Assembly (NCBI RefSeq): GCF_022429645.1
Contig: NZ_CP092480.1
Coordinates: 709,501 to 773,500 of the forward strand
Source: Lutibacter sp. A80
GTDB taxonomy: Bacteria; Bacteroidota; Bacteroidia; Flavobacteriales; Flavobacteriaceae
Direction of reading: 5' to 3'
DNA length: 64,000 nt
The notes beneath the pieces are model-generated. The model was not told the DNA's origin, did no database searches, and saw nothing but the letters and a program-made list of their open reading frames with translations. Positions 1 to 6,104 of the stretch are shown one piece after another. The stretch's first letter is position 1. Every line of letters starts with the position of its first letter. The position numbers were made by a program, and so were the translations under genes.

Positions 1-205
1 CTGTGGAAATTGCATTTGTGAAATAAACTCCCTCAGAAGCAAGTTGATCAATATTAGGTGTTTTAACATCTGGGTTTCCAGCATAACCTAATGATTCCGC
101 GCGCCATTGATCTGCAAAAACAAATACAATATTCGGTTTTTCTATTTTATTCTTACAAGAAATAAAGAATAATGTTGTGAATAATATAATACTAATTTTT
201 TTCAT
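1..205 (-). CDS. Sulfatase lipoprotein, N-terminal fragment cut by the window edge
   Basis: The 68 visible codons start with a short hydrophobic leader ending in a lipobox (FISC), so the mature protein should be a lipid-anchored periplasmic or surface protein. The mature part opens with [18 protein letters not shown] and continues [13 protein letters not shown], which is the conserved N-terminus of type I sulfatases (family knowledge: the Asp of the FADQ segment binds the catalytic metal). The formylglycine Cys/Ser motif lies outside the window. The start ATG is at 203-205. A half recombination-site-like sequence begins about 30 bp upstream. Whether the gene is itself a cassette or the chromosomal neighbour of the array cannot be decided here. 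Confidence 0.88.
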
Positions 206-260
206 TTTATTATCGATAGTTTGTTGAGCCTTACATACAACGTGTTTCTTTCGTTTGTAA

Positions 261-394
261 CAGAGGAGAACTATAACGTGTTTTAGATTTGCAGTTCCAG
301 TACACGTACGAGTCCTCTGTTGCTATAAAGTTGCAAAGAACCATTTGGAATACCAGGCGTATAAAACCCCGATAAAGGAAGTGGTTTTTGCAAC
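261..394 (+). ncRNA. Candidate IS110 bridge RNA, copy 1
   Basis: IS110 elements encode a bridge RNA in the non-coding end next to the transposase (established for IS621). Here two stems are visible. CAGAGGA (261-267) pairs with TCCTCTG (313-319), with ACGTG (276-280) and CACGT (303-307) nested inside. GTTGCAAAGAACCA (330-343) pairs with TGGTTTTTGCAAC (382-394) with one bulge, enclosing a ~38-nt loop. The block is better preserved between the two copies than the transposase. That it is transcribed and guides recombination is inferred. Confidence 0.45.
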
Positions 395-421
395 ATATTT
401 AATCTTTCTAATTGTAAAAAT

Positions 422-913
422 ATGAAAAATTACCAAGAAGTAGTAGGAATTGATGTATCAAAAAAGACGATTGATGCTTATTGTTATTATGCCCAAGTAC
501 TCCAAGATGTTTTAACACGCTTAAAAACGATACCAGGAATTGGAAACAAAACAGCTTTAATGTTAGTTGTTTTAACAGACGGATTTGATCGTTTCACAAG
601 CGGAAGCGAATTATGTAGTTATGCTGGTCTAACCCCTGTGATTAGAAAAAGTGGAAGCAGTGTAAATGGACGACCAAAGATTAGTAAAATAGGAAATCAA
701 AAGCTTCGAAATTTATTATTTATGTGCAGTTTTAATGCTTGCAAATACAACAAGGCTTGTAAGGAAATTTATGAACGAATAGTAGCAAAAGGAAAGAGCA
801 AAAAATTAGCATTAATAGCTGTGTGTAATAAACTACTAAAACAGGCTTTTGCTATTGCTAAATCAGGATTAATATATGATGGAAACTATAAAAGTACTTT
901 AATGAAAAATTAA
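422..913 (+). pseudogene. IS110-family transposase with internal deletion
   Basis: The 163-residue frame starts with VVGIDVSKKTIDAY, the first strand of the RuvC-like DEDD domain, and then jumps directly to TIPGIGNKTALML and YAGLTPVIRKSG, the C-terminal transposase_20 domain with the catalytic-serine region. Intact family members are about 300-350 residues, so roughly half the protein, including the remaining acidic residues and the coiled coil, is missing. The deletion is in frame, so a short protein could still be made, but it should be catalytically dead. It lies directly downstream of the structured left end. Confidence 0.82.
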
Positions 914-959
914 TACAGTTTTACTTGTTTTTTACCACAGTACTTGGTTGTGGTTTGTA

Positions 960-1343
960 TTAATACAAAGGGGTTAAATTTTCCTTCATATGCACATTTA
1001 CGACGATTGAATCACCACTTTTAATCGATAATTTTTGTATCTTAATAGATTGTTTTCCTATATAAAAAATTTCTACATCAAATATATTAGGAAATAGTAC
1101 TGCTTTTACATTATTCTTAGGAAAAGGATTAAAAAAGACTCCATTGATTAATATCCCTGCAGGAATTTTACTTTCATCGAGAGAATCATAACAATTTACG
1201 ATCATTTGAGTTGTTTTATCATTGCTTTTTTTTCTAATAATTTCAAAGGTTTCAGTTTTGTAATAGTTATCTTTAAGGACATTACAATTTGTAAATATTA
1301 GAAAAGTTGAAAATAAGACTAAATATTTAATCACATTTGACAT
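960..1343 (-). CDS. Small lipoprotein of unknown function, cassette gene
   Basis: 127 residues. The leader ends in a lipobox (IFTNC, Cys20), predicting a lipid-anchored envelope protein. The rest (two beta-rich stretches with FFNPFPK and SIKSGDSIVVNVH) is not recognised. The upstream small frame 1331-1468 overlaps its start by 13 nt, suggesting translational coupling. The stop codon lies a few bases from the GTT core left by the IS110 remnant (947). Of all cassettes its two end sequences match worst (7 of 13), possibly because the IS disturbed one end. Confidence 0.65.
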   Translation of the reverse strand: MSNVIKYLVLFSTFLIFTNCNVLKDNYYKTETFEIIRKKSNDKTTQMIVNCYDSLDESKIPAGILINGVFFNPFPKNNVKAVLFPNIFDVEIFYIGKQSIKIQKLSIKSGDSIVVNVHMKENLTPLY

Positions 1344-1468
1344 TTTTTGGCATCTTTTTTATTAAAGCGTTCATTTTTTATAATATTTTGAATTTCGTTT
1401 TCTAGTGAATCTAAATTGTTAGAATTCTGTTTATAATTCCTGATTCTTTCCCATTTATCGTTTTCCAT
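1331..1468 (-). CDS. Short hydrophilic ORF (45 aa) overlapping the next gene
   Basis: ATG at 1466-1468, stop TGA at 1331-1333, giving a 45-residue, strongly charged peptide beginning MENDKWERIRNYKQNS and ending in KKDAKKCQM. It fills the otherwise empty stretch between the cassette site ending at 1491 and the lipoprotein gene, and its last codons overlap that gene's start in another frame. No family is recognised. It could be a real first gene of a two-gene cassette, or a decayed N-terminus. Position and length make translation plausible, but nothing proves it. Confidence 0.35.
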   Translation of the reverse strand: MENDKWERIRNYKQNSNNLDSLENEIQNIIKNERFNKKDAKKCQM

Positions 1469-1490
1469 TTTATCGTTTTCCTAAATGAAT

Positions 1491-1626
1491 GCCAACGAGT
1501 TTTTATAAGATTTGTTGCGTGTTTTAAGCTATAAATTTAGTAAATAATTCCCGAGCAAAGAAAGTTAGTGAGGACTTTCGTAAGTAGGCTCTAACCAGGC
1601 AATTAATTTTGTACGTTGTTGTAACC
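1491..1626. repeat. attC-like site B between cassettes
   Basis: Read on the plus strand: inverse core GCCAAC (1491-1496), 7-nt spacer, arm TATAAGATTTGTTGC (1504-1518), central region with hairpin GAAAGT/ACTTTC, arm GCAATTAATTTTGTA (1599-1613), 4-nt spacer, core GTTGTAACC (1618-1626). The arms pair over 15 positions with three G.T wobbles and one T.T mismatch. Core GTTGTAACC is the exact reverse complement of 2161-2169 on the far side of the next gene, not of the near end of this site. Confidence 0.7.
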
Positions 1627-1641
1627 TGTGCATTTTTCATT

Positions 1642-2154
1642 TTAATCATATTCAATCGGAAGAAATTTCTTTTCAGGAATCTTTCCATAATCACAAGGAT
1701 TATCAATAAATCTAAAATCTTTTTCATATTCCTTTCTAGTCATCATCATTTTCCCTATTCGTATATCATTTGGATTATTTTTAGGTGTTAATTCCCATTT
1801 CAACAGGTACAATTTCTTATCAAAATCTATAATTTTCATAATTGACCTAATTGTATAAAATTCGTGAACCCCTAAAAACTCAATTTCATTTAATGTTTTT
1901 AATATTTTAACTGAATTAATCTTTAAATCATTTGGTCCTTCGTGTCCTAAATCGTAAATCACATTATTATCAGTAATTGTAATGTAATTATTGTTTCCAT
2001 CGCAAGGATCATAAATCAGATATCCTTTTTCATCTCTTTCTAAATTCACCCAAGTTCCAATTAATTCAGATTTGTTTTTCCATTCATTGTCTTGTTTTCT
2101 AGTAAAAGAAAATATCAATATTAAGATTATTATTATCGTAGAAATTTTTTTCAT
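1642..2154 (-). CDS. Secreted or membrane-anchored protein, unknown function, cassette gene
   Basis: 170 residues from the ATG at 2152-2154. The open frame extends 46 codons further upstream, but that stretch is antisense to the IS110 left end, so the start at MKKISTIIIILILIFSF is preferred. It gives a normal signal or anchor segment directly after the site end. The mature part has GTWVNLERDEKGYLIYDPC, reminiscent of small lipocalin-like lipoproteins (LIGTW start), and a C-terminal Cys motif NPCDYGKIPEKKFLPIEYD. No lipobox Cys is present. Flanked by the perfect pair GTTGTAACC / GGTTACAAC. Confidence 0.65.
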   Translation of the reverse strand: MKKISTIIIILILIFSFTRKQDNEWKNKSELIGTWVNLERDEKGYLIYDPCDGNNNYITITDNNVIYDLGHEGPNDLKINSVKILKTLNEIEFLGVHEFYTIRSIMKIIDFDKKLYLLKWELTPKNNPNDIRIGKMMMTRKEYEKDFRFIDNPCDYGKIPEKKFLPIEYD

Positions 2155-2208
2155 AGCATTGGTTACAACGTGTTTCTTTAGTTTGTAATAAATATCTTTA
2201 TGTAGTAA

Positions 2209-2342
2209 CAGTGGAGAACTATAACGTGTTTTAGATTTGCAGTTCCAGTACACGTACAAGTCCTCTGTTGCTATAAAGTTGCAAAGAACCATTTGGAATA
2301 CCAGGCGTATAAGACCCCCATAAAGGAAGTAGTTTTTGCAAC
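2209..2342 (+). ncRNA. Candidate IS110 bridge RNA, copy 2
   Basis: Same two-stem architecture as the copy at 261-394: CAGTGGA (2209-2215) with TCCTCTG (2261-2267), one mismatch, and GTTGCAAAGAACCA (2278-2291) with TAGTTTTTGCAAC (2330-2342), one C.A mismatch. The loop of the second stem is almost unchanged (CCAGGCGTATAA), differing only at a few positions. The near-identical loops fit the observation that both copies sit in the same kind of target. Expression is inferred. Confidence 0.4.
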
Positions 2343-2369
2343 ATATTTAATCATTTTAATTGTAAAAAT

Positions 2370-2694
2370 ATGAAAAATTACCGGAAGCGAATTATGTAGT
2401 TATACTAGTCTAACCCATGTAATTAGAAAAAGTGGAAGCAGTGTAAATGGACGACCAAAGATTAGTAAAATAGGAAATCAAAAGCTTCGAAATTTATTAT
2501 TTATGTGCAGTTTTAATGCTTGCAAATACAACAAGGCTTGTAAGGAAATTTATGAACGAATAGTAGCAAAAGGAAAGAGCAAAAAATTATCATTAATAGC
2601 TGTGTGTAATAAACTACTAAAACAGGCTTTTGCTATTGCAAAATCAGGATTAATATATGATGGAAACTATAAAAGTACTTTAATTAAAAATTAA
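2370..2694 (+). pseudogene. IS110-family transposase fragment, deleted and frameshifted
   Basis: The original start (MKNY) is present at 2370, but the deletion throws the frame off, ending at a TAG within ten codons. In the correct frame the C-terminal transposase_20 part continues from 2383 to the stop at 2694 (KSGSSVNGRPKISKIGNQ, then NLLFMCSFNACKYNK). An internal Met at 2503 could start a 63-residue peptide, but this would be a fragment with no catalytic core. Confidence 0.85.
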
Positions 2695-2747
2695 TACATT
2701 TTTACTTGTTTTTTACCACAGTACTTTGTTAGCCACTGTTTTTTCAT

Positions 2748-3341
2748 TCAGCTTACCCAACTTCCAAGGCTTTCTTTTTCAATCCATTTTCCGTTGACAA
2801 ATTCGTAAATTCTTTCTTCTCCACCACCACATAACCAACCGCAAACTGTTCCGATTTGCACATACGCCAAATCGAATGTTTCATTAAATATAGGTTTACT
2901 AATCGAACAATATCCATCTTTACAATTCGTGTTAAGCAAGTCCCAAAATTGAAATTCGCCACTTTTTGATTTTTTTTCAAATTTCTCAAATTGCTTTTGG
3001 GTTAATATATTCTTATTCTTAACTAAATCAGATGTAATTTTAAACCTTTTGTATAGCCTTGACTGAGTATTTAAATGAACGGTATCTTTAATTTTCAAAT
3101 TTTTCTTAATATATTCATTAAAATCGGAAACCATTGGATGCGAAACTGCTCTTGGTTTTTCTGTTATACAACTCGATATTAAATATCCCTTACTTTCATC
3201 TTTTAAAATCTGTTTTATTAATTCCGTCGTTTTTTGAGCATCCAATTCCTCCAATTCTTTCAAATCAGTTTTGATGTTCGTTTTGCAACTGAAATTCAAA
3301 ATTAGAATTATAAATGATATGTAGAATGTTATTTTTTTCAA
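2748..3341 (-). CDS. Lipoprotein of unknown function, cassette gene (TTG start)
   Basis: 197 residues with a leader ending in lipobox LNFSC (Cys19). The middle is hydrophilic. The C-terminal third has NCKDGYCSISKPIF, a conserved-looking Cys pair, and IGTVCGWLCGGGEERIYEF, a second Cys pair that may form a disulfide in the periplasm. No family is recognised. The start is TTG at 3339-3341. No ATG lies in frame between it and the site end at 3354, so a non-ATG start is needed. The gene is enclosed by the perfect 9-bp pair GTTAGCCAC (2728) and GTGGCTAAC (3346). Confidence 0.7.
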   Translation of the reverse strand: MKKITFYISFIILILNFSCKTNIKTDLKELEELDAQKTTELIKQILKDESKGYLISSCITEKPRAVSHPMVSDFNEYIKKNLKIKDTVHLNTQSRLYKRFKITSDLVKNKNILTQKQFEKFEKKSKSGEFQFWDLLNTNCKDGYCSISKPIFNETFDLAYVQIGTVCGWLCGGGEERIYEFVNGKWIEKESLGSWVS

Positions 3342-3345
3342 AATG

Positions 3346-3485
3346 GTGGCTAACGTTTATGTATAAGGAAAGTTGCGTGTTTGTGTGCGAGGATTTTCCG
3401 AAGGAAAATCAGAAGCTAGCAAACAAGCAACTAACTTTGGTTTAGCTAAAACTAGCAATTTTTTTTATACGGTGTTGTGCGTAGG
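3346..3485. repeat. attC-like site D between cassettes
   Basis: Plus-strand order: inverse core GTGGCTAAC (3346-3354), 7-nt spacer, arm TATAAGGAAAGTTGC (3362-3376), central hairpin GATTTTCC-GAA-GGAAAATC, arm GCAATTTTTTTTATA (3455-3469), 4-nt spacer CGGT, core GTTGTGCGTAGG (3474-3485). The two arms pair over all 15 positions with three G.T wobbles and no mismatch. On the minus strand those three would be A.C mismatches. Confidence 0.75.
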
Positions 3486-3491
3486 TTTTTT

Positions 3492-4229
3492 TTATTCAAA
3501 ATTCGCTATTCTTTCATTAAAGGTTTCTCCAAGTCCGTATAAACATCCAGAACAGCTAAAAATCACGGAATTTATATTTTTTAAATGCTCTATAATTTGT
3601 TTTTGATCATCACTCAAATTTCCTATTTTAAGCAAACCTATAGTTCCAAGAGTTTGTAATTCAGGTGAAAATGATGTTAAATATCTATTAAGTGCTTTTT
3701 TATTTTTATTTTTTGACAGTCTTAGTGTTTTTTTTGATTCACTCGGAATATCAAGACCGACTTCTCCACAACCAAATCCGACAACATATTCGGTTAAAAT
3801 CTGTTCTTTGAAATCAGATTCATTTAATTGAGTTTTGTAAAAGTCATTATGGTTTTTAATGTAGTTATTTAAAAATTCTAGATTGTTTTTAAAAGTCGAA
3901 ATGTCAATGTGCTTGTCTTTGCTTAAGTCATATTCTGAAACCCAACCAATAATTATTTTTCCATTTTTGGAAATAAAATTTACTTTAATGTCTAAACCTG
4001 GGTTTGGCATTACTAAAATCCGATGATGCTCATAACCAAAATCAATTTTTCTTTCAATTTCGTCAAAGGTTGTTAAAACTGATAGGGTTTTAAAATCCGC
4101 CGTTTTGATTGATGAAATTAATTCTACATTCTCAATAGTTGATAAGTATGATTTTAATTCCACAAGATTATTTTGTCCATTTAAGAACTGGGTTAAAATC
4201 AGAGTAATAAATATGAATGTTTTTCTCAT
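3492..4229 (-). CDS. Secreted protein of unknown function, cassette gene
   Basis: 245 residues. Residues 1-18 (MRKTFIFITLILTQFLNG) form a clean Sec signal peptide without lipobox. The mature protein is alpha/beta-like, with GFGCGEVGLDIPSESKK near residue 155 and a C-terminal FSCSGCLYGLG. The three cysteines suggest disulfides or metal binding. No family is recognised. It is enclosed by the perfect 10-bp pair GTTGTGCGTA (3474) and TACGCACAAC (4240), so it forms a discrete unit with its ends. Confidence 0.7.
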   Translation of the reverse strand: MRKTFIFITLILTQFLNGQNNLVELKSYLSTIENVELISSIKTADFKTLSVLTTFDEIERKIDFGYEHHRILVMPNPGLDIKVNFISKNGKIIIGWVSEYDLSKDKHIDISTFKNNLEFLNNYIKNHNDFYKTQLNESDFKEQILTEYVVGFGCGEVGLDIPSESKKTLRLSKNKNKKALNRYLTSFSPELQTLGTIGLLKIGNLSDDQKQIIEHLKNINSVIFSCSGCLYGLGETFNERIANFE

Positions 4230-4239
4230 TTTCTCAACT

Positions 4240-4377
4240 TACGCACAACGTGTTTTTATAAGATTTGTGCGACTGGAAAATCGGAGATTTTTCGGTGGTA
4301 GCAAATCGTTTGTTGAATTTTTATCAGTTTATTTTTAGTTTAAAAGTAAGCATAAATTTTATGAGGTGTTGTGCATA
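4240..4377. repeat. attC-like site E between cassettes
   Basis: Inverse core TACGCACAAC (4240-4249), spacer GTGTTTT, arm TATAAGATTTGTGC (4257-4270), central region with AAAATC-GGA-GATTTT, arm GCATAAATTTTATG (4350-4363), spacer AGGT, core GTTGTGCATA (4368-4377). The arms pair over 14 positions with three G.T wobbles. The central part is close to that of site F (4883-5021), whereas the outer cores differ and follow the flanking genes. Confidence 0.75.
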
Positions 4378-4383
4378 GTTTTT

Positions 4384-4863
4384 TTAATTCTCCCAAACAG
4401 AGTAATCGAGTATTCTCCATTCTCCGTTATCATTCAAAAACTTTCCTCGACAACCAGCTCCTTCAATTTTATAAAATAATTTAAAATCGGTAGTGTCAGT
4501 TTTTATTTCTAATATGTCAAATATTACATAATCTTTAATTTCTTCTTTGTCTAATTCCTCAAGCGTCAATATTCTAACTTTTTGCTCGAACTTAGTCAAG
4601 TTAAAGTTTTTTTTAATATGTTCCGTTTCCATGATTTTTACGGGCAACCTCTCTTTCAGTTCTGGATGATAAATCCATTGAAGTTTAGGTAAGTCAAGAA
4701 TTTGTTGAACAATCAATTCGGTTTGATTTGATTCCGATTTTATTAATTCCGTTTGAGTGAGTTCGTTTTCAGATTCAGATTTGTTTTCCGTTTCTTTTTT
4801 TTTCGAATTCTTGCAAGAAATCAGAAGTGAAATTATCAATAAAATTCCGACTATTTTTTTCAT
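4384..4863 (-). CDS. Lipoprotein of unknown function, cassette gene
   Basis: 159 residues. The leader ends at lipobox LLISC (Cys17). It is followed by a low-complexity charged linker (KNSKKKETENKSESENE) containing the repeat TELIKSESNQTELI, then a folded part ending LFYKIEGAGCRGKFLNDNG and EWRILDYSVWEN. Such linkers tether lipoproteins away from the membrane. Function unknown. Flanked by the perfect 10-bp pair GTTGTGCATA (4368) and TATGCACAAC (4883), with the stop codon 6 bp from the core and the start 20 bp from the inverse core. Confidence 0.7.
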   Translation of the reverse strand: MKKIVGILLIISLLISCKNSKKKETENKSESENELTQTELIKSESNQTELIVQQILDLPKLQWIYHPELKERLPVKIMETEHIKKNFNLTKFEQKVRILTLEELDKEEIKDYVIFDILEIKTDTTDFKLFYKIEGAGCRGKFLNDNGEWRILDYSVWEN

Positions 4864-4882
4864 TTCGTGAGCTTTCTCAAAT

Positions 4883-5021
4883 TATGCACAACGGTTTTTT
4901 ATATGATTTGTGCGACTGGAAAATCGGAGATTTTTCGGTTGTAGCAAATCGTTTGTTGAATGTTTGTCGTTTGTATTAGTTCAAATTTAAGCATAAATTA
5001 TATAAGTTGTTGGCTGCTGCC
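4883..5021. repeat. attC-like site F between cassettes
   Basis: Inverse core TATGCACAAC (4883-4892), spacer GGTTTTT, arm TATATGATTTGTGC (4900-4913), central region as in site E, arm GCATAAATTATATA (4991-5004), spacer AGTT, core GTTGGCTGCTGCC (5009-5021). Compared with site E, the fifth arm position has changed from A to T and its partner from T to A, a compensatory pair of changes that keeps the stem intact. Confidence 0.75.
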
Positions 5022-5025
5022 TTTT

Positions 5026-5817
5026 TTATCGTTTTAGTAATCCTTTAACAAACTCTAAAGAATTTTCAGCTTGTTGTTTAGTGTGATCCTGATCAGTATG
5101 AGCCGAAATATTTCTCATTTTTCGAAGATTTTCAATTTTTATTAAATCATCTTTTGAAATGATATTTTCTTTTAGAGAAATACTAATTAAATCATTAAAT
5201 CTAAATTTAGAAACTCTAATATCTCTAGCTCTAATCATTTTATACAAATGAGTTTCTAAAATCTTATATGATTCTAATATTGAATGTGAATAATATCCAT
5301 CTCTGAATAGTTTATTTGCACTGTCAAGACCTTTAATCTCATTTTCTTCAGCTTGTTCTTGAAATTTCAATTTACTTTCAAGACGATATTTTTTAGCTAC
5401 TAAAACAGAGTAGAATATAGTCAAACCTGAAATCAAAATATTCATTACAGTTATTATAATATTGGCGAATTTTTCGTTCTCCTTTAGTATTAGATTTATT
5501 TGAAATAGAATAAAAGATAAGACAATTATTAGAGGTGAAAATATAATCAACGCAAATAACGAATAAGCAATTTTCAGGGTATAATCGAATATTTTCCATT
5601 TTCCGATTTTAGTATCTCGTACAACAATTTCTAAAATGTATAAATAAAGACTGATTGAAAAACCTATTACACTATAAAGAAAATAGTCAGCAAATGTAAT
5701 TGTCTTAAAACCTAAATCAATATTTATTTGGGATAATTCCTCTTTAAAAGCACTTAAAGAAATGACGAGAGTTACAAACCCTAAAATGATTTCAAATTTA
5801 TTCTTAATCTTTTCCAT
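5026..5817 (-). CDS. Membrane protein with C-terminal HEPN-like domain, cassette gene
   Basis: 263 residues. Four hydrophobic segments lie at about residues 8-24, 40-62, 85-110 and 122-142. The remaining ~115 residues are cytoplasmic and helical: DSANKLFRDGYYSHSILESY, ETHLYKMIRARDIR, then LRKMRNISAHTDQ. The RNISAH stretch fits the R-x4-H motif of HEPN proteins, many of which are RNases in defence or toxin systems, and the preceding helix pattern also fits HEPN. Catalytic activity is an inference. It is the last unit of the array. Its end pair (GTTGGCTGCTGCC / GGTTGCTGCCAAC) matches at 10 of 13 positions. Confidence 0.7.
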   Translation of the reverse strand: MEKIKNKFEIILGFVTLVISLSAFKEELSQINIDLGFKTITFADYFLYSVIGFSISLYLYILEIVVRDTKIGKWKIFDYTLKIAYSLFALIIFSPLIIVLSFILFQINLILKENEKFANIIITVMNILISGLTIFYSVLVAKKYRLESKLKFQEQAEENEIKGLDSANKLFRDGYYSHSILESYKILETHLYKMIRARDIRVSKFRFNDLISISLKENIISKDDLIKIENLRKMRNISAHTDQDHTKQQAENSLEFVKGLLKR

Positions 5818-5831
5818 TTATTTTTTCATCT

Positions 5832-5844
5832 GGTTGCTGCCAAC
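5832..5844. repeat. Terminal half of a cassette site (inverse core G)
   Basis: GGTTGCTGCCAAC lies 15 bp upstream of the HEPN-like gene and pairs with the core of site F. The sequence beyond it is AT-rich and shows no second arm and no following GTT core, so the array appears to end here. The following ~300 bp (5851-6152) carry no gene and only the hairpin noted at 6105. Confidence 0.5.
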
Positions 5845-6104
5845 TCGTTATATAATAACAAATATAACTGTTTTACCCTAAAAAAACACGGGATAAACGT
5901 AGTTTTTATATTTTTTATTAATTATCTATACACCGGTTTTAGCTTATGTTTTCTTTATAAATTACCATATTTTTTATACTAAAAAAATACCAAAACTAGG
6001 CTTACTTATAAACAGCTTTTATACATTAAATTATTTAACAATAATTAAAAGGCATTTTTAACAAGATTTTATAATTAAAAAAAAATAACTATATTCGTTT
6101 ATAA

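Follow-up and report, generated by a model that had tools for sequence, protein, structure and literature searches.

The left end of a 64,000-nucleotide stretch of the Lutibacter sp. A80 genome (positions 709501 to 773500 of a single contig of 3,930,133 bases, NZ_CP092480.1; hereafter the window) carries an array of gene cassettes. This array very probably belongs to an integron-like system of the Flavobacteriaceae that is served by a Xer-type tyrosine recombinase. Sequence comparison across genomes delimits the units and their direction, and identifies a hairpin site, an attI, a link between sites and recombinase and the exchange of single units between species.

An initial annotation, made from the letters of the window, had described unrelated minus-strand genes separated by sites, each gene with its own matching pair of ends, and had read them as mobile cassettes. 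The array starts at an attI-like site at window position 5844, runs leftward past the left edge of the window and holds four intact sites (Table 1). The four end pairs of that annotation are real and exactly placed; its two weaker pairs are as it described them, the fifth (core at 5844, end at 5009) matching at 10 of 13 positions and the first (core at 1496, end at 947) little beyond GTTG. The sulfatase-like gene at the left edge is a cassette too, its core (GTTGTATGTAAGG, at 241) pairing with an inverted core at genome position 708253. A chain search that demands a GTT core, its own inverted core, a gap of 40 to 170 nt and the next core gave a score of 25.1 over window positions 1 to 6100, whereas 20 Markov controls scored at most 13.2 and the sequence in reverse scored 6.1. 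Three of the seven links in this chain are pairs from the initial annotation and the remaining links look spurious; the pair 2169/1618 was missed because an insertion sequence (IS) remnant breaks the spacing.

In each unit, GTT-N6-A-A-... and its inverse ...-C-T-N6'-AAC enclose a gene and its short leader, and a hairpin site of about 121 to 128 nt comes next. Sites were collected with a profile that leaves out the variable bases, which in 42 sequences gave 233 matches on the strand of the integrase and 6 on the opposite one; removal of matches without AAC and GTT ends, or overlapping, left 190 of the 233. Since this collection involves no selection on pairing, the six variable bases can be tested without bias: all six were complementary between a unit's own ends in 105 of 143 consecutive-site units, in 5 of 190 cases within one site (bearing out the earlier remark that the two cores of a site do not match) and in 4 of 123 skip-one pairs. 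In 143 cassettes picked by the chain search (links under 10 bits and loci under a score of 16 left out, with positions 4 to 9 biased accordingly), pairing covered positions 1 to 10 (72% at position 10), position 11 was unpaired (core A in 138, end C in 111), positions 12 to 14 were paired again (76 to 85%) and background level was reached by position 15. The mismatch pattern extends beyond the Flavobacteriaceae to Arundinibacter, in 4 of 5 cassettes. A genus set of 322 units had fully matching ends in 256, with 109 different end words, and its longest open reading frame (ORF) lay on the site strand in 259, on the other strand in 16 and fell below 40 amino acids in 47. Gammaproteobacterial integrons also pair their own ends, over 9 to 14 bp and without the conserved mismatch (links of at least 9 bits), and own-end pairing alone was accordingly dropped as a mark of a new system.

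The sites fold as hairpins. Without any assumed structure, 162 sites (190 reduced to 188 and then 162 by removing those outside 105 to 135 nt or duplicated) gave covariation z-scores up to 14, mainly along one diagonal that joins left position +k with right position -(k+3); weaker signals lay one or two registers off it. The main register was constant from +4/-7 to +19/-22, and a signal at +20/-24 hints at another extra base deeper in the stem. A stood opposite C at +1/-1 (151 sites), +10/-13 (111) and +15/-18 (122); on the bottom strand each A.C of the top strand is a G.T. Alignment A2, comprising 59 of 85 picked sites from 23 genomes that belong to the 249 family genomes searched below, was 88.7% paired (71.8 ± 0.8% when shuffled) and had a covariation of 0.372 (0.101 ± 0.010 shuffled; at most 0.084 in slid versions). 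A single extra base lies in the right stem arm, between +14 and +15, in 19 of the 59 aligned sites; an earlier picture of a stem without extrahelical bases was given up on this recount. The bottom strand folded better than the top in 100 of 101 circle forms (mean -28.2 versus -23.3 kcal/mol) and in 99 of 101 array forms, and the circle form was more stable than the array form in 97 of 101. Covariance model R1, built from the 59 sites (one from the window, at 1494-1620, and six more from this genome), recovered the four intact sites of the window, three of them outside the training set, and its next best match there had an E-value of 0.18. Located by profile, 317 of 322 sites were 121 to 128 nt long, and 12 of 13 gammaproteobacterial sites 82 to 104 nt. 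As a separate observation, one site type occurs 11 times in a row at locus L227 (G452:C148, 1169-4978) as nearly bare sites, with gaps of 53 to 225 bp in 8 of 10.

No integrase-family match lies in the window, as the initial annotation had stated; its question of which recombinase would serve the sites is now largely answered by a Xer-type tyrosine recombinase about 250 kb away. The genome has nine integrase-family matches, and the longest chain follows one of them, a 390-amino-acid tyrosine recombinase encoded at 965117-966289 on the minus strand. The array of the 946-965 kb region starts right after this gene, with 14 consecutive cassettes from 964932 to 953711 and a chain score of 78.0 (control maximum, 25.9). 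The protein has a core-binding and a catalytic domain and an N-terminal stretch of about 95 residues; R232, K257, H321, R324, H347 and Y356, which we take to be the catalytic residues, are invariant across 24 recombinases. It scored 214 bits with the XerA-type model of NCBIfam (cut-off, 220) and 205 bits, in two pieces, with the integron integrase model TIGR02249 (cut-off, 265). The closest solved structures by sequence are two archaeal Xer enzymes, followed by VchIntIA, and comparison of the predicted fold (predicted local distance difference test [pLDDT], 82; predicted template modelling score [pTM], 0.56) gave the same order.

By insertion test and tree, the enzyme is not IntI. Its phmmer alignment to VchIntIA breaks at the IntI insertion (query 277-301 against chain 180-247), and the IntI-specific additional domain around patch III is absent. 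The distance from the K patch to HTLRH is 64 to 65 residues in 23 of 24 rows of the recombinase family (one lacks the pattern), against 106 to 107 in 13 of 16 IntI rows (one has 87, two lack the pattern); of the loci in which no frame had at first been detected, several are included. In the tree (70 rows, unrooted, with long branches and with IntI rows labelled by tail and spacing), the 16 IntI rows form one clade (100/100) and the 24 rows of the recombinase family fall outside it. Several of the nearest named relatives come from Lutibacter. On the IntI side of the tree midpoint fall the array-bearing enzymes of Arundinibacter and of Flavobacteriaceae S0862; IntI could therefore be nested among enzymes of this kind. 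At one locus outside Bacteroidota (L143, Firmicutes HGW), a chain scoring 22.9 (control, 5.2) lies upstream of a recombinase whose spacing is likewise short (65) and is perhaps another non-IntI cassette system.

A putative attI, ATATAA-n2-4-GTT, follows the integrase match at a distance of at most 450 bp in 35 of 40 loci, where 0.4 would be expected, and is found also at the start of the window array. The right flank of the window array is homologous (87 to 88%) to genome G462 up to the attI GTT, and G462 carries other cassettes behind it. The same genome has four further attI copies inside one array (locus L259, contig C1; at 980090, 974058, 972734 and 970543), each behind a near-identical short unit starting GTTGTGTGTAATAACATT, as if attI were borne on a cassette. 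In the 35 attI stretches, conserved words including a TATATTTR word precede the crossover, and the attI of the window and the main attI of this genome share an inverted repeat of the kind TTTATCCC...GGGTAAA. These elements are possibly a promoter or accessory binding sites. The promoter form used in checking this was TAnnTTWD with a TTG box: TAnnTTWD occurred in 23 of the 35 stretches against 9.6% at random places, and a TTG box at the usual distance from it in 0 of 35, which makes a promoter inside attI conceivable and only that.

Sites and recombinase go together at many loci. Among 40 homologous loci, the sequence extends 800 bp or more downstream in 35, and chain scores of at least 20 were reached downstream in 18 of these 35 and upstream in 0 of 40. 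Sites were present in 15 of 37 named Bacteroidota loci, including Lutibacter, Mesonia, Zunongwangia, Algibacter (which may overlap the source of the R1 training sites), Flavobacterium and Arundinibacter; 44 of their 45 sites lay downstream on the recombinase strand. R1 had no match at E-values up to 1 in 43 loci outside Bacteroidota (582 kb of loci, some with integron arrays). With at most 14 or 17 candidates scored per genome and E-values that are rough, R1 matched 221 of 249 family genomes (198 of 226 when genomes that supplied model sites are set aside) and 70 of 198 genomes drawn across the phylum; 16 of the 20 genomes listed without a match are 1.9 Mb or smaller. A close relative of the recombinase (E-value up to 1e-70) was present in 81 of the 249 family genomes, as a single copy in 80. 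Among 21 single-contig genomes without such a relative, 14 had a match clearly beyond the apparent XerC/D level and 7 did not, one of these 7 being without sites. In the Lutibacter sp. A80 genome, site matches were clustered, each cluster on one strand. Array sizes elsewhere recall superintegrons (58 sites in G446:C1, 600-700 kb; 54 in G438:C18, 210-270 kb; each on one strand).

Comparison between species supports the reading of these units as mobile cassettes: single units are shared among Lutibacter-group genomes, their borders run from GTT to AAC and the orthologous attI of one relative is followed by other cassettes. Fixed gene order in relatives, one of the two observations that by the initial annotation would have spoken against mobility, was not seen. 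Fourteen interspecies cassette pairs of at least 85% identity (nine families) were found. In 11 of them the homology spans the whole unit between GTT and AAC; likeness extends to the downstream site in 11 and to the upstream site in 2, a level of likeness that 73 of 364 random interspecies site pairs reach. Cassette 1618-2169 recurs in G437 at 95% identity with both flanks different; in the window it has an IS remnant upstream and a different site type downstream. The other refuting observation named there, ends that part from their genes, was made in part. The six-base word differed in 4 of the 14 close pairs, and both ends were complementary in all 4; the downstream site was kept in 11 of 14, with another site in 3 and for cassette 1618-2169. 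These pairs weaken two simpler ideas, a site that always travels with its gene and an end word fixed per cassette. Among all 27 interspecies pairs the word differed in 14, with both copies fully complementary in 7 of these. In the close pairs, end words of homologous cassettes have apparently been rewritten on both ends together (e.g., G439_C9 versus G437_C16); from this concerted change, either one end was copied to the other or both were replaced at once, and hairpin repair as the cause is a guess.

The system may work as follows. The recombinase encoded at 965117-966289 would excise a cassette as a circle, cutting at G^TT, and in the circle both ends would meet as a single hairpin whose outer arm is paired. 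In this circle site it is the bottom strand that would fold, having G.T wobbles where the top strand has A.C mismatches, and that would be inserted at a double-stranded attI (ATATAAC-n-A|GTT) as the first gene of the array. The window array, with its own attI and no integrase, would depend on the distant enzyme, about 250 kb off, acting in trans, or would be a relic. Exchanged downstream sites may reflect recombination at the AAC side, which is a guess; in the Vibrio cholerae site, altering the extrahelical bases moved the recombination point to R'' and cost strand specificity (PMC2727003).

Several observations weigh against this account. The role of the enzyme, the strand and the circle are deduced from sequence, and the energy difference between strands follows from the A.C pattern, in a comparison confined to these sites. 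Full complementarity of own ends is missing in 38 of the 143 consecutive-site units. Of the downstream regions, 17 of 35 score below 20; a score of 20 was also attained by the best of five Markov controls, in 2 of the 35 downstream regions and in 1 of the 40 upstream. At least one recombinase match beyond XerC/D carries stops in each of 7 of the 21 single-contig genomes, and 6 of the 21 have sites and yet no recombinase match clearly above XerC/D. Taking all 27 interspecies pairs together, likeness extends to the downstream site in 13 and to the upstream site in 6, and the differing end words (4 of 14) and downstream sites (3 of 14, and cassette 2 of the window) of the close pairs count on the same side.

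That the array is a true integron with a merely divergent IntI, or a cassette cluster that lost IntI (CALIN), is unlikely in our judgment. The GTT/AAC boxes, the attI, the cassettes, a C-terminal SPLD tail as in IntI, the 205 bits with TIGR02249 and the own-end pairing that gammaproteobacterial integrons share would fit it; the extra right-arm base of 19 of 59 sites could be an extrahelical base, and excerpts of two reviews count Bacteroidota among the phyla with integrons (PMC8618304, PMC9668308). Against this stand the two-piece score below the curated cut-off of 265, the K patch-HTLRH spacing of 64 to 65 residues instead of 106 to 107, an IntI clade (100/100) that excludes these proteins and a site model without a match in 43 loci outside Bacteroidota, some with integron arrays. 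We give slightly less credence still to the host XerC/XerD as the mover of the sites, with the 390-amino-acid protein merely a neighbour. The enzyme does have a Xer-type fold, XerA scoring best, and some site-bearing genomes have no recombinase better than XerC/D; but the attI motif lies right behind the gene for the 390-amino-acid recombinase in 35 of 40 loci, the sites follow its strand (233 versus 6; 44 of 45 in named loci) and no chain scoring at least 20 lies upstream of it. Hairpins between co-directional genes could also be dispersed repeats or terminator-like structures that do not move, which is most improbable given that a unit's own ends are complementary, that unit borders are kept in relatives with single units common to several species, and that the orthologous attI in one relative carries other cassettes.

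The features of the window array are collected in Table 1. Five of the six cassettes in the window lack a Pfam match. With PHROGs, two of six cassette proteins had weak matches (E-values 0.0005 to 0.007; two of the three families without a function); PADLOC gave none among the window cassette proteins and Rfam none anywhere in the window. The left-edge gene, recognised from its sequence alone, is presumably a sulfatase. An IS110-family end stood directly behind the AAC box, taking the place of the site, in six of six places found by a search that covered mostly array-bearing stretches: four in this genome (about 242-946 and 2170-2727 of the window, and about 691.3 and 698.1 kb) and one each in G439 and G462. 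The IS1111-attC elements of integrons are a parallel to these remnants: they resemble them in the position behind the AAC box and differ in that only remnants are found here.

Table 1. Features of the cassette array at the left end of the window (window positions)
Feature	Position	Strand	Description
attI-like insertion point	5842-5925	-	TTATATTTGTTATTATATAACGA|GTT; conserved upstream stretch; crossover GTT at 5844-5842; integrase not adjoining; orthologous in G462
Cassette 6	5009-5844	-	gene 5026-5817, its C-terminus HEPN-like (24.2 bits with Pfam HEPN; cut-off, 22); end pair agrees at 10 of 13 positions
attC-like hairpin site, type A	4890-5011	-	R1, 57.2 bits, E 1.2e-10
Cassette 5	4368-4892	-	gene 4384-4863, lipoprotein-like by eye, no Pfam match; complementary ends GTTGTGCATA, A/C at position 11
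attC-like hairpin site, type A	4247-4370	-	R1, 53.3 bits, E 8.7e-10
Cassette 4	3474-4249	-	gene 3492-4229, no Pfam match; complementary ends GTTGTGCGTA
attC-like hairpin site, type B	3352-3476	-	R1, 97.1 bits, E 1.5e-19
Cassette 3	2728-3354	-	gene 2748-3341, no Pfam match; complementary ends GTTAGCCAC
IS110-family remnant in place of site	2170-2727		ORF piece 2503-2694 (+); 300 nt at 98% identity to the copy at 601-900; AAC followed directly by the IS end
Cassette 2	1618-2169	-	gene 1642-2154; complementary ends GTTGTAACC; 95% identical unit at G437:C12:57670-58223, with other flanks
attC-like hairpin site, type B	1494-1620	-	R1, 84.0 bits, E 1.3e-16; R1 training site
Unit 1	947-1496	-	gene 960-1343, by eye lipoprotein-like; ends unmatched; may be two fused cassettes
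IS110-family remnant in place of site	242-946		transposase piece 422-913 (+), Pfam Transposase_20
Start of next cassette	1-241	-	sulfatase-like gene; core GTTGTATGTA pairs with an inverted core beyond the window, at genome 708253

Set beside known systems, these arrays come closest to sedentary chromosomal integrons. Both have units of one gene and one site in the same direction that are exchanged as units (with exceptions here), GTT/AAC boxes, matching own ends and hairpins with outer and inner arms; both have an attI beside a tyrosine recombinase gene (35 of 40 loci here), one-directional arrays, cassettes shared between species and IS110-group remnants in sites. The sites have attC-like R boxes (AAC...GTT) around an imperfect palindrome that folds as a hairpin; attC sites are defined, in the relevant excerpt, with two or three extrahelical bases in the L stem (PMC2727003). 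In contrast to integrons, the recombinase here has no IntI insertion, falls outside the IntI clade and has the N-terminal stretch of about 95 residues, and the array lies downstream of the integrase gene and co-directional with it. The site length is nearly fixed (121 to 128 nt in 317 of 322, versus 82 to 104 in 12 of 13 gammaproteobacterial sites), and the sites have conserved A.C oppositions (G.T on the bottom strand), a spacer of 3 versus 6 nt and an outer arm of 10 bp, A.C and 3 bp. The window array resembles a CALIN in having no adjoining integrase and differs in starting at an attI-like site and in the presence, elsewhere in the genome, of a recombinase with the same kind of sites. XerA-type archaeal recombinases (PDB 5hxy and 4a8e) are closest in solved fold and in sequence; to our knowledge, no cassette arrays are known for them.

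Excerpts of two papers treat IntI with its own additional domain as defining or essential for integrons (PMC9668308, PMC8138268). The enzyme here fails this test, and the system would therefore work like an integron without being a member by that test. No description of it was found among the best-ranked titles and abstracts of the open-access literature, a search whose scope left subscription papers and preprints aside. Excerpts of reviews that place Bacteroidota among integron-bearing phyla do not mention it there (PMC8618304, PMC9668308), the IntegronFinder 2.0 paper, in the part concerned, names Salinibacter ruber as the complete integron identified in Bacteroidetes (PMC9024848), and an IntegronFinder run on a Tenacibaculum genome is described, in the passage concerned, as reporting no integrons (PMC10013915); recombinase relatives are present in Tenacibaculum other than that genome.

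We lean, with some reserve, towards regarding the system as a second kind of integron across the Flavobacteriaceae and other Bacteroidota, with a recombinase that lacks a supposedly essential domain, strand choice through G.T wobbles and a hairpin bulge, and a six-base word rewritten at both ends; it would then be one of the most widely distributed gene-capture systems in marine bacteria, and current integron models would miss it. If the sites recombine, cassette-based gene capture has gone unnoticed in a large group of marine bacteria (221 of 249 family and 70 of 198 phylum genomes), and the need for the IntI insertion in the use of folded sites could be tested by a two-enzyme comparison. With Pfam matches lacking for five of the six cassettes in the window, such arrays could be a reservoir of uncharacterised mobile genes.

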